A DNA stretch of 64,000 bases from an uncultured Phycisphaerales bacterium (GTDB lineage: Bacteria; Planctomycetota; Phycisphaerae; Phycisphaerales; UBA1924): contig CALKJW010000005.1 of NCBI GenBank assembly GCA_937995595.1, positions 186,001-250,000 on the forward strand. The letters are read 5' to 3'. Under the pieces are notes generated by a model. That model saw nothing but the letters and a program-made list of their open reading frames with translations. It was not told the DNA's origin and ran no database searches. Positions 15,761 through 17,529 of this stretch are shown here, piece by piece. Numbering within the stretch: position 1 is the first letter of the stretch; the number at the start of each line of letters is the position of its first letter. The position numbers were made by a program, and so were the translations under genes.

Positions 15761-16909
15761 ATGGCGTACACCGTTCTTGCACGACGATACCGATCCCAGT
15801 CCTTCGACGAGGTGGTGGGCCAGGAGGCCATCGCCAACACGCTGCGCACCGCGATCCGACAGAACCGCGTGGCGCACGCGTACCTCTTCACCGGGACGCG
15901 CGGCGTGGGCAAGACCTCGATGGCGCGGATCTTCGCCCGCGCGCTCAACGCCGTGGACGACAGCGGCAAGGAGAACCCGGAGATCGCCGCGGCGATCATG
16001 CGAGGGCAGGACACCGACGTGATCGAGATCGACGCCGCGAGCAACACCGGCGTGGACAACGCTCGCGACCTGATCAGCAACGCGCAGTACCGCCCGCTCC
16101 GCGGCCGCAAGAAGGTGTACATCATCGACGAAGTGCACATGCTCTCGATGCAGGCGTTCAACGCGCTGCTCAAGACCATGGAAGAGCCGCCCGAGCACGT
16201 GGTCTTCATCCTGTGCACCACCGAGACGCACAAGGTCCCGGCGACGATCCAGTCGCGCTGCCAGCGGTTCGACTTCCGCAACATCGCGACCGCGAAGATC
16301 GCCGACCACCTGCGCGAGGTGCTCAAGGGCGAGGGCGTGACCGCCGAGCCGGAACTGGTGCACATGGTCGCGCGGCTGGGCAACGGCTCGATGCGCGACG
16401 CGCTGTCCCTGCTGGACCGCCTGCTCGCCGCGGGCGAGAAGAAACTCACCGTCAAACTGCTGGACCAGTTGATCGGCACGCCGGACCGCGACCTGACGGG
16501 CGCGGTGGTGAAGGCCATCGCCGAGGGCGACGCCGCGGGCGCGCTCCGCAACGCCGACGCGCTGCTGCACCGCGGCGTCTCGCCCGAGCAACTGCTCAAC
16601 ACGCTGGCCGATGCCTTCCGCGACCTGATGGTCATCAGCGTCTGCGGCCCCGACTCGGACCTGGTCGAACTGGGCGACGAGTCGCGCAAGCAGGCCGCGG
16701 CGATGGCGCAGCGGTTCGACACCGCGGGCCTCACGCACCTGATCGCGATCTGCGACGGCGTGCGCCGATCGGCGCGAGACTTCGCCGGCGGGCGCGCCCT
16801 GCTCGACGCGGCGATCGTTCGGATGGCCATGGCCGACAAGATGGCCGACGTCGCCGCGCTCATCGCCGGCACGGCCGGCGCCAACGGGAGCGCCGCGGCA
16901 AAAAAATGA
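15761..16909 (+). CDS. dnaX: DNA polymerase III tau/gamma subunit, zero-frame product (gamma-like)
   Basis: 382 residues. It is the AAA+ clamp-loader ATPase: YxVLARRYRP-like start, Walker A GTRGVGKT (45-52), Walker B IIDEVHML (121-128), sensor FILCTTE, arginine-finger SRC in TIQSRCQRF, then LSLLDRLLA and domain III helices. It loads the beta clamp in the replisome. The frame ends ...GCA AAA AAA TGA, a stop placed on an A AAA AAA slippery heptamer; the tau domain follows in the -1 frame (next entry). The usual four-cysteine zinc module after the Walker A helix has no cysteines. The first codon lies 9 bases after a putative -10 hexamer, with no Shine-Dalgarno. Confidence 0.95.
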   Translation: MAYTVLARRYRSQSFDEVVGQEAIANTLRTAIRQNRVAHAYLFTGTRGVGKTSMARIFARALNAVDDSGKENPEIAAAIMRGQDTDVIEIDAASNTGVDNARDLISNAQYRPLRGRKKVYIIDEVHMLSMQAFNALLKTMEEPPEHVVFILCTTETHKVPATIQSRCQRFDFRNIATAKIADHLREVLKGEGVTAEPELVHMVARLGNGSMRDALSLLDRLLAAGEKKLTVKLLDQLIGTPDRDLTGAVVKAIAEGDAAGALRNADALLHRGVSPEQLLNTLADAFRDLMVISVCGPDSDLVELGDESRKQAAAMAQRFDTAGLTHLIAICDGVRRSARDFAGGRALLDAAIVRMAMADKMADVAALIAGTAGANGSAAAKK

Positions 16910-16933
16910 GCCCGGGGGGGGGGCGGGGGGAGG
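16885..16933 (+). promoter_or_regulatory. Candidate recoding site in dnaX: SD-like element, slippery A7, G-rich stimulator
   Basis: CGGGAG at 16885-16890 is followed by 9 bases and then A7 at 16900-16906, read as A AAA AAA in the zero frame. The zero-frame stop TGA (16907-16909) is immediately next. After a 7-base spacer from the A-run comes G10 (16914-16923), C, G6 (16925-16930), AGG. This arrangement (upstream SD-like stimulator, slippery heptamer, 3' structure at 5-9 bases) matches known -1 frameshift cassettes. The same A7 could also cause transcriptional slippage, or ATGA at 16906-16909 could allow reinitiation. Confidence 0.65.
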
Positions 16934-17529
16934 AAGACGTCGGAGTTGCGGGCCCGACCGGGGGCGAAGGGACGCTGGCCGTGAACGCGCCGCGCGGCGC
17001 GACCGCCCAAGCGGAACCCGTCGCACCGCCCCCGGCTGTATCGACGCCCGCCGCGACGCCGCGCCCTCCGGCCGTGGCCGAGCCCGCGCCGACGGGCGAC
17101 CTCTGGGCGCGTGTGCTCCGCGGGCCGGGCATGACCCAGGTCCTGCGGACGATTCTGAGCAACCTGCGCGTCCGGTCGGTCGATGCCGCTTCCGGGCGCG
17201 TCGTGATCGCGGGCGAGGCGAAGTACGCCGAATCGGCGCGCTCGCGGCAGGCTCTGATTGTGGATGCGCTCAGGCGCGAACTGGGCCGCGCGGTCGAACT
17301 GCACGTCGAGGCGGACGAACCTTCCGCCGAACCGGGCGAGCCCGACCTCCCCGCCTCGGAGGTTCCGGCTGATCGGGCTGAAGGCGAGCCCCGTCCATCT
17401 TCTCCGCCCGCGGTCCCGGCCGGTCCGCCGCAGGCGCTTTCGGAGCATCCGCTCATCCGCGAAGCCATGGAACTGTTCGGCGCTCGTATCGTGGATGTGC
17501 AGCACCGCCGTCCGGCGGCGCCGTCGTGA
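16906..17529 (+). CDS. dnaX: dnaX tau-specific C-terminal region in the -1 frame
   Basis: 207 codons counted from the ATG at 16906, which overlaps the gamma stop. After a Gly/Pro/Ala-rich linker comes a tau C-terminal-type domain: LWARVLRGPGM, LRTILSNLRVRSVD, a VVIAG strand, RRELGRAVELHVE, and the ending HPLIREAMELFGARIVDV. In tau this region binds the polymerase alpha subunit and the DnaB helicase. A -1 shift on the A7 run would fuse it to the ATPase to give a 589-residue tau. Otherwise it may be made separately by stop-start coupling, or the break is a one-base sequence error. In E. coli the shift makes the short form; here it would make the long one. Confidence 0.8.
   Translation: MSPGGGRGEEDVGVAGPTGGEGTLAVNAPRGATAQAEPVAPPPAVSTPAATPRPPAVAEPAPTGDLWARVLRGPGMTQVLRTILSNLRVRSVDAASGRVVIAGEAKYAESARSRQALIVDALRRELGRAVELHVEADEPSAEPGEPDLPASEVPADRAEGEPRPSSPPAVPAGPPQALSEHPLIREAMELFGARIVDVQHRRPAAPS

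Follow-up and report, generated by a model that had tools for sequence, protein, structure and literature searches.

A probable −1 ribosomal frameshift of reversed polarity in dnaX of a Phycisphaerales bacterium and its relatives

In Escherichia coli, the zero frame of dnaX encodes tau, the long form of this replication protein. Reversed polarity, in which the zero frame ends early and recoding is needed for tau, is already known (PMC3711429, PMC5009743). Antonov 2013 (PMC3711429) presents reversed dnaX as two open reading frames (ORFs) in 17 genes from 12 genera, and a reversed, frameshift-type dnaX of Chlorobium phaeobacteroides is mentioned as unpublished in a 2016 review (PMC5009743). Here, we describe dnaX in a 64,000-nucleotide (nt) stretch of an uncultured Phycisphaerales bacterium (contig CALKJW010000005.1; "the window" denotes this whole stretch), where the zero frame encodes gamma and a shift would yield tau. 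Judging from its sequence and those of its relatives, this dnaX is very probably intact, with its polarity reversed and a −1 ribosomal frameshift programmed into the gene.

The dnaX locus in the window

All positions refer to the forward strand of the window (Table 1), and the host genome comprises 3.1 Mb in 55 contigs. Read directly, the 3' end of the zero frame is GCA AAA AAA TGA (16898-16909) and its protein ends in ...AAAKK. The zero-frame product matches TIGR02397 dnaX_nterm in NCBIfam (E = 8.4e-117) as well as the Pfam families DNA_pol3_delta2, DNAX_ATPase_lid, and DNA_pol3_gamma3. A −1 slip at the heptamer is predicted to give a tau of 589 amino acids (aa) with MSPGG following directly on KK. 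A first-pass annotation of this sequence had proposed that dnaX is split by a stop on an A7 run, that tau would join in the −1 frame after two lysines, and that a Shine-Dalgarno (SD)-like CGGGAG lies 9 bases before the run. Direct reading bears out the split and the SD-like element (16885-16890), and the predicted junction is the one envisaged.

Table 1. Features of the dnaX locus in the window
Feature	Position	Strand	Remark
dnaX zero frame, gamma-like clamp-loader ATPase	15761..16909	+	382 aa, stop TGA 16907-16909
SD-like CGGGAG	16885..16890	+	9 nt upstream of heptamer; can pair with 16S tail
Slippery heptamer A_AAA_AAA, zero-frame phase	16900..16906	+	X_XXY_YYZ form
Zero-frame stop TGA directly after heptamer	16907..16909	+	overlaps −1-frame ATG (ATGA 16906-16909)
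−1-frame ORF, tau-specific C-terminal part	16906..17529	+	207 aa from ATG, stop 17527-17529
G10-C-G6-A-G2 tract, candidate RNA G-quadruplex	16914..16933	+	begins 7 nt past heptamer, where relatives have stem-loop
Predicted alpha/beta domain of tau	17086..17319	+	−1 ORF residues 61-138, AlphaFold2
Conserved C-terminal tau motif SEHPLIREAMELFGARIVDV	17440..17499	+	similar motif near −1-frame end in most split loci

The run at 16900-16906 is the sole A7 on both strands of the window; shuffles of the window average 0.10, and 9 of 100 contain at least one. Across the 3.1 Mb genome, the pattern GGAG-N6-11-A7-N0-3-TGA occurs once, and its backwards control does not occur. An identical A7-TGA arrangement is present in a sister species at 95% amino acid identity (G001). 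The 16S rRNA of the window genome terminates in GGATCACCTCCTTT, with a CCTCC tail, and among the 30 of 44 tRNA loci read, lysine tRNAs with UUU and with CUU are both present.

Conservation of the split and its signals

A search for relatives covered 101 genomes, all of which gave some match, although a few gave only a distant paralogue or a fragment. In the window's own family, the ends of dnaX were read in 57 of 61 genomes (the other four had no full match or met a contig edge). They were also read in 32 of 40 genomes that belong to other families of this order, together with 80 named public loci; the eight other-family genomes outside the counts include two (G061, G065) that were read later. 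Removing 9 duplicates and 6 loci without a stop before the contig end from 170 loci (L009-L178) leaves 155. These consist of 102 reversed loci, 44 continuous loci with some heptamer, and 9 others.

Within the family, 52 of 57 readable genomes (56 genera) have a zero frame that stops at or soon after an X_XXY_YYZ heptamer with tau in the −1 frame, and the 52 span 51 genera. The comparison of dnaX across relatives that the first-pass annotation recommended finds such a heptamer and zero-frame stop retained in these 52. The heptamer is A7 in 44 of the split genomes, GGGAAAA in seven, and CCCAAAA in one. The −1 frame reaches its own stop 75-249 codons on in 50 of them and is cut by the contig end in the other two. 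Additional genomes read later follow suit with one exception: G310 is reversed with A7; G131, G180, and G246 are reversed with GGGAAAA; and G329 is continuous. Beyond the order, most rows among the matches listed from a 244-genome sample of the phylum look continuous by open-frame length, and few of the short cases checked have an A-run or heptamer.

Among the 102 reversed loci, 90 carry short-type sites (A7 in 76, A8 in 3, GGGAAAA in 9, and CCCAAAA in 2). The stop lies 0 or 1 codon past the heptamer in 86 of these, and no heptamer ends in AAG (0/90). Every A7 or A8 at a split (79/79) is in the zero-frame phase A_AAA_AAA. No off-phase A7 was discarded in reaching this count, because all closed, non-duplicate loci with a zero frame shorter than 450 aa fall in the reversed set except L141. 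The commonest zero-frame stop context is TGAC, a weak terminator (46/90 short-type loci). This context may aid frameshifting or may merely reflect the first base of the stem.

Two further elements accompany the heptamer. Upstream, GGAG lies at a spacer of 7-10 nt in 48 of 90 loci versus a background of 0.28 loci per position, and the mean anti-SD pairing energy reaches −6.2 kcal/mol at −15 versus −0.5 to −2.3 from −90 to −22. Downstream, 56 of 88 loci have their first helix (6 bp or longer) beginning at +6 or +7 from the heptamer, and the median z is −1.73 (a mean z at offset +48 is a zero-variance artefact and was disregarded). The 11 loci with GGG or CCC heptamers keep both elements, with a mean best anti-SD energy of −7.26 and a mean minimum free energy of −21.2. 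Loci with A9-A12 at the same place give no downstream helix signal (median z of 0.04 in 12 reversed and 0.14 in 37 continuous loci), and GGAG at a spacer of 6-10 nt occurs in 0 of 12 and 1 of 37, respectively. Covariation in the downstream stem is thin because its 3' arm moves. One group of six loci has two pairs changed on both sides and one pair broken in one sequence, another of four has a single pair changed on both sides and three pairs that are each broken in one sequence, and a group of two gave no usable consensus. Rfam returned nothing relevant.

The C-terminal region of tau binds polymerase and helicase in E. coli. A hidden Markov model (HMM) built from 39 continuous tau C-termini recognizes 80 of the 86 −1 peptides that are complete (E < 0.05; 77 at 1e-3). 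It matches no +1 peptide among the 73 with at least 20 aa. This homology identifies the −1 ORF as tau, and a C-terminal consensus of HPLVxxAxELFGA is derived from 53 sequences. Between the window and its sister species, the −1 ORF differs at 49, 43, and 83 sites in codon positions 1, 2, and 3 over 206 codons, and the zero-frame part at 11, 9, and 81. AlphaFold2 predicts a confident domain at residues 61-138 of the −1 ORF, with block means of the predicted local distance difference test of 80-97 over residues 61-140. Its nearest fold is DnaA domain I (Z 10.3, root-mean-square deviation 2.0, 75 aligned); domain V of E. coli tau scores Z 6.6-6.8, tied with many unrelated proteins, including ribosomal ones. 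The predicted fold therefore supports a replisome-type domain and does not single out tau. Searched by itself, the −1 ORF reaches the cut-off of no Pfam or NCBIfam family, P0002 lies below the Pfam gathering scores for DnaX_C / DNA_pol3_tau_5 (15.4 vs 26.2 and 14.5 vs 28.8 bits), a PDB sequence search with the −1 alignment gives weak matches only (best DnaA, E = 0.0063), and Foldseek gives no match at E <= 0.001.

Frameshifting and its alternatives

We propose that ribosomes remaining in frame would stop at the TGA and release the gamma-like ATPase, and that a fraction, with lysine tRNAs on AAA AAA, would slip back by one base. The slipping ribosomes would be restrained by the upstream SD:anti-SD duplex and by a downstream roadblock, which would be a stem-loop in most relatives and probably the G-tract in the window. 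Shifted ribosomes would continue to the end of the −1 frame and produce a tau with its C-terminal region. The sequences themselves show the split, its conservation, the phase and exchanges of the heptamer, the SD element, the helix of the relatives, and that the −1 frame is under selection. From these we infer that slippage occurs and is ribosomal, as well as its efficiency and a function for both products. That AAA AAA is preferred to AAA AAG fits the presence of two lysine tRNAs in the window genome, and likewise an argument made for Thermus in the 2016 review (PMC5009743). Reversed polarity with recoding to make tau had also been suggested by the first-pass annotation, and conservation together with a canonical set of stimulators supports it; that annotation did not separate ribosomal from transcriptional slippage.

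Several observations weigh against a programmed ribosomal shift. Five of the 57 readable family genomes are continuous, and the loci are related by descent, so that the counts are not independent events. GGAG at a spacer of 7-10 nt is lacking in 42 of 90 short-type loci, 28 of the 90 (the window included) have a possible start codon (ATG, GTG, or TTG) near the stop, and 6 of the 86 complete −1 peptides, that of the window not among them, are unmatched by the tau HMM. In the window, the downstream stem is at chance level (z 0.04; 0.42 in the sister species), and the identity of a downstream stimulator there is thus a guess. Finally, A_AAA_AAA is much less slippery than A_AAA_AAG in E. coli (PMC5009743), and PMC4066793 describes G_GGA_AAA as inefficient in its introduction but lists it with the more efficient heptamers in its insertion sequence section.

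Foremost among the alternatives is transcriptional slippage, in which RNA polymerase adds or drops an A at the run and some of the mRNA reads into tau, as in Thermus. This would fit other families, where A9-A12 runs occupy the same place in either polarity without stimulators. In the 12 reversed long-run loci, tau lies in −1 in 10 and, unlike in A7-type loci, in +1 in two (L088 with A12 and L098 with A9), a two-direction sign used by Antonov 2013 (PMC3711429). RNA-polymerase slippage is the better guess for these A9+ lineages. Antonov 2013 also argued for it even at A7-A9. For the window, we consider it improbable. Its A7 falls below the roughly nine of a Thermus-type homopolymer, the heptamer in 11 of 90 short-type loci is A4 preceded by GGG or CCC, the A7/A8 phase is fixed, as opposed to a spread of 7/31/11 over phases 0/1/2 in 49 A9+ loci, and the SD and stem are present at A7-type loci. 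On the non-homopolymer heptamers, the fixed phase, and the SD and stem, transcriptional slippage is rejected for the A7 class. The GGGAAAA and CCCAAAA variants with their stimulators favor the ribosome over RNA polymerase, because they offer the polymerase no long homopolymer. The lack of A10 in the window, on its own, only weakens the slippage reading, because A9, A8, and A7 also occur once each in the set of Antonov 2013 (PMC3711429).

Less probable still is stop-start coupling, in which translation would restart at ATGA and make the C-terminal tau fragment a protein of its own beside gamma. The ATGA overlap is found in the window, its sister species, and three other loci, with an SD-like sequence just upstream, and the first-pass annotation had held coupling to be an equally simple explanation. 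Across relatives it loses that standing. In 62 of 90 loci, the −1 frame has no ATG, GTG, or TTG up to about 30 nt from the heptamer (CTG, often forced in the −1 frame by CTGA, was not counted as a start), and this leads us to reject coupling as a general mechanism. Where the stop directly follows the heptamer (nine loci), four use TAG and can form no ATG. Starts further inside are no commoner than in continuous tau (ATG in 31/90 vs 13/37; SD plus start in 16/90 vs 5/37). Therefore, a restart is not what the loci conserve, and coupling also leaves the heptamer unexplained.

Another alternative is an ordinary, continuous dnaX from which sequencing or assembly dropped a base, and here the homopolymer adjoins a G10 tract in a 55-contig assembly. 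The first-pass annotation had asked that such an error be excluded. A one-base error cannot account for a split that recurs in 52 of 57 family genomes, and this recurrence refutes the explanation for the family; the split is also seen in single-contig genomes (G037 and, among the extra genomes, G180), and GGGAAAA variants lack such a run. We regard an error in the window as scarcely credible. Equally far-fetched is a decayed C-terminus, with the −1 frame a dying remnant and only gamma in use: the −1 ORF does have a poorly conserved linker, but decay is rejected on the tau HMM matches, the codon-position pattern, and the confident predicted domain.

Polarity switches, the G-tract, and known systems

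A quick dnaX tree covers 147 of the 155 loci (L065 and L066 gave no clean first-part translation, and six distant loci were left out). This rough tree, in which some branches are weak, has at least 15 changes of polarity and 14 of run class. GGGAAAA and CCCAAAA stand in for A7 on scattered branches, and GGGAAAA occupies the site at about six separate points of the tree. One locus, L133 (CP053450.1, a chromosome record), is nested among A7 loci next to L038 and reads AAAAAAC CTTGAGGGC where L038 has AAAAAAA GCCTGAGGGC. By eye, L133 is one base shorter here, which places tau in the zero frame and a stop in −1 and gives this site the E. coli polarity. The pair looks like a natural one-base reversal of which product needs the shift, as foreseen in principle by the 2016 review (PMC5009743).

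The G10-C-G6 tract at 16914-16930 was absent from the first-pass annotation. ViennaRNA gives −35.5 kcal/mol for the window with quadruplexes allowed versus −23.2 without. The first 22 nt past A7 are identical in the window and sister species, and the linker beyond has diverged. In two of three species read of another genus (G050 and G380), ATCGGGGGGCGGGGGAGG directly follows TAG, with a G-run from 6 nt; the third (G358) has a conventional stem. A two-layer G-quadruplex is predicted to be favored in all four G-tract sequences when ViennaRNA allows quadruplexes. In G380, the zero frame before the site reads as dnaX and the −1 frame after it as tau, and the open part of the zero frame extends back from the site for just 213 codons; this dnaX is thus broken further upstream, perhaps by assembly. 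A pattern scan of 150 family genomes found only G050 and G380 and was too strict to match the window, so it does not constitute a census. We propose that the G-tract may be the downstream roadblock in the window, in place of the stem-loop. The G10 itself (16914-16923) lies inside the tau frame and is kept as G10 in the sister species; it could provoke RNA polymerase slippage or replication errors.

Together, these observations allow a broader, tentative proposal that we consider rather unlikely to hold in all its parts: that the whole family needs −1 ribosomal frameshifting for tau, that the lineage went back and forth several times between slippage of RNA polymerase (A9+) and of the ribosome (A7, GGGAAAA, CCCAAAA) and between polarities, and that a natural RNA G-quadruplex replaced the stem-loop in the window genus (2/2 species) and another genus (2/3 species read). 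If this is true, a whole bacterial family would need a frameshift to make a core replication protein in its usual long form, and the G-quadruplex would be, to our knowledge, the first natural case to drive productive frameshifting. A gene caller ending at the TGA would list only gamma in split genomes. Moreover, comparing genomes offers a way to test whether the ribosome or RNA polymerase slips in reversed dnaX, because the same site has A7, GGGAAAA, or CCCAAAA with SD and stem in some genomes and A9-A12 without either elsewhere.

Other loci recovered in the survey stand apart. Four from family f16 of the same phylum (L216, L219, L222, and L228, from G167, G247, G135, and G267) have a zero frame that ends at ~386-392 aa and a −1 frame that continues into a tau-like C-domain. 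With no A-run or X_XXY_YYZ at the junction, they must use a different shift or restart. Two public loci, L110 (RHKP01000007.1, titled Cyanobacteria bacterium) and L120 (QWIH01000073.1, Leptolyngbya sp.), hold a planctomycete-type dnaX with a frameshift site, and their organism labels look wrong.

In the open literature searched, with supplements outside its scope, no planctomycete dnaX frameshift is described. As far as that search extends, the family-wide reversed signal, the heptamer swaps in dnaX, the repeated polarity flips, and the G-tract variant are new. Relative to E. coli dnaX, the window locus is alike in gene, in a −1 shift on a lysine heptamer between the ATPase and tau parts, and in an upstream SD, and most planctomycete relatives likewise have a stem-loop a few nt downstream. 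The heptamer is A_AAA_AAG in E. coli as opposed to A_AAA_AAA, G_GGA_AAA, and C_CCA_AAA in the 90 loci, and the window genome has two lysine tRNAs. The dnaX of Thermus thermophilus, which relies on transcriptional slippage, also forms two products at an A-run, but its A9 and continuous tau frame resemble the A9+ loci of other families rather than the window. An RNA G-quadruplex has been shown to stimulate −1 frameshifting (PMC3919603), and the window likewise has a sequence predicted to form a G-quadruplex; the 2016 review gives natural use of such structures for productive frameshifting as not known at that time.

Finally, the nearest precedents are the reversed genes themselves. Those of Antonov 2013 (PMC3711429) likewise have two adjacent ORFs and need −1 recoding for tau. 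They have A10 in 9 of 17 genes, for which transcriptional slippage was argued, compared with A7 in the window. Here, the SD and stem that accompany A7 or non-homopolymer heptamers speak for the ribosome, and the trait is characteristic of an entire family. The dnaX of Chlorobium phaeobacteroides likewise has A7 (PMC3711429), with tau made by frameshifting and possible E. coli-like stimulators. That remark concerns one species, whereas the arrangement described here extends over 51 genera (52 genomes) and includes heptamer exchange and polarity flips.
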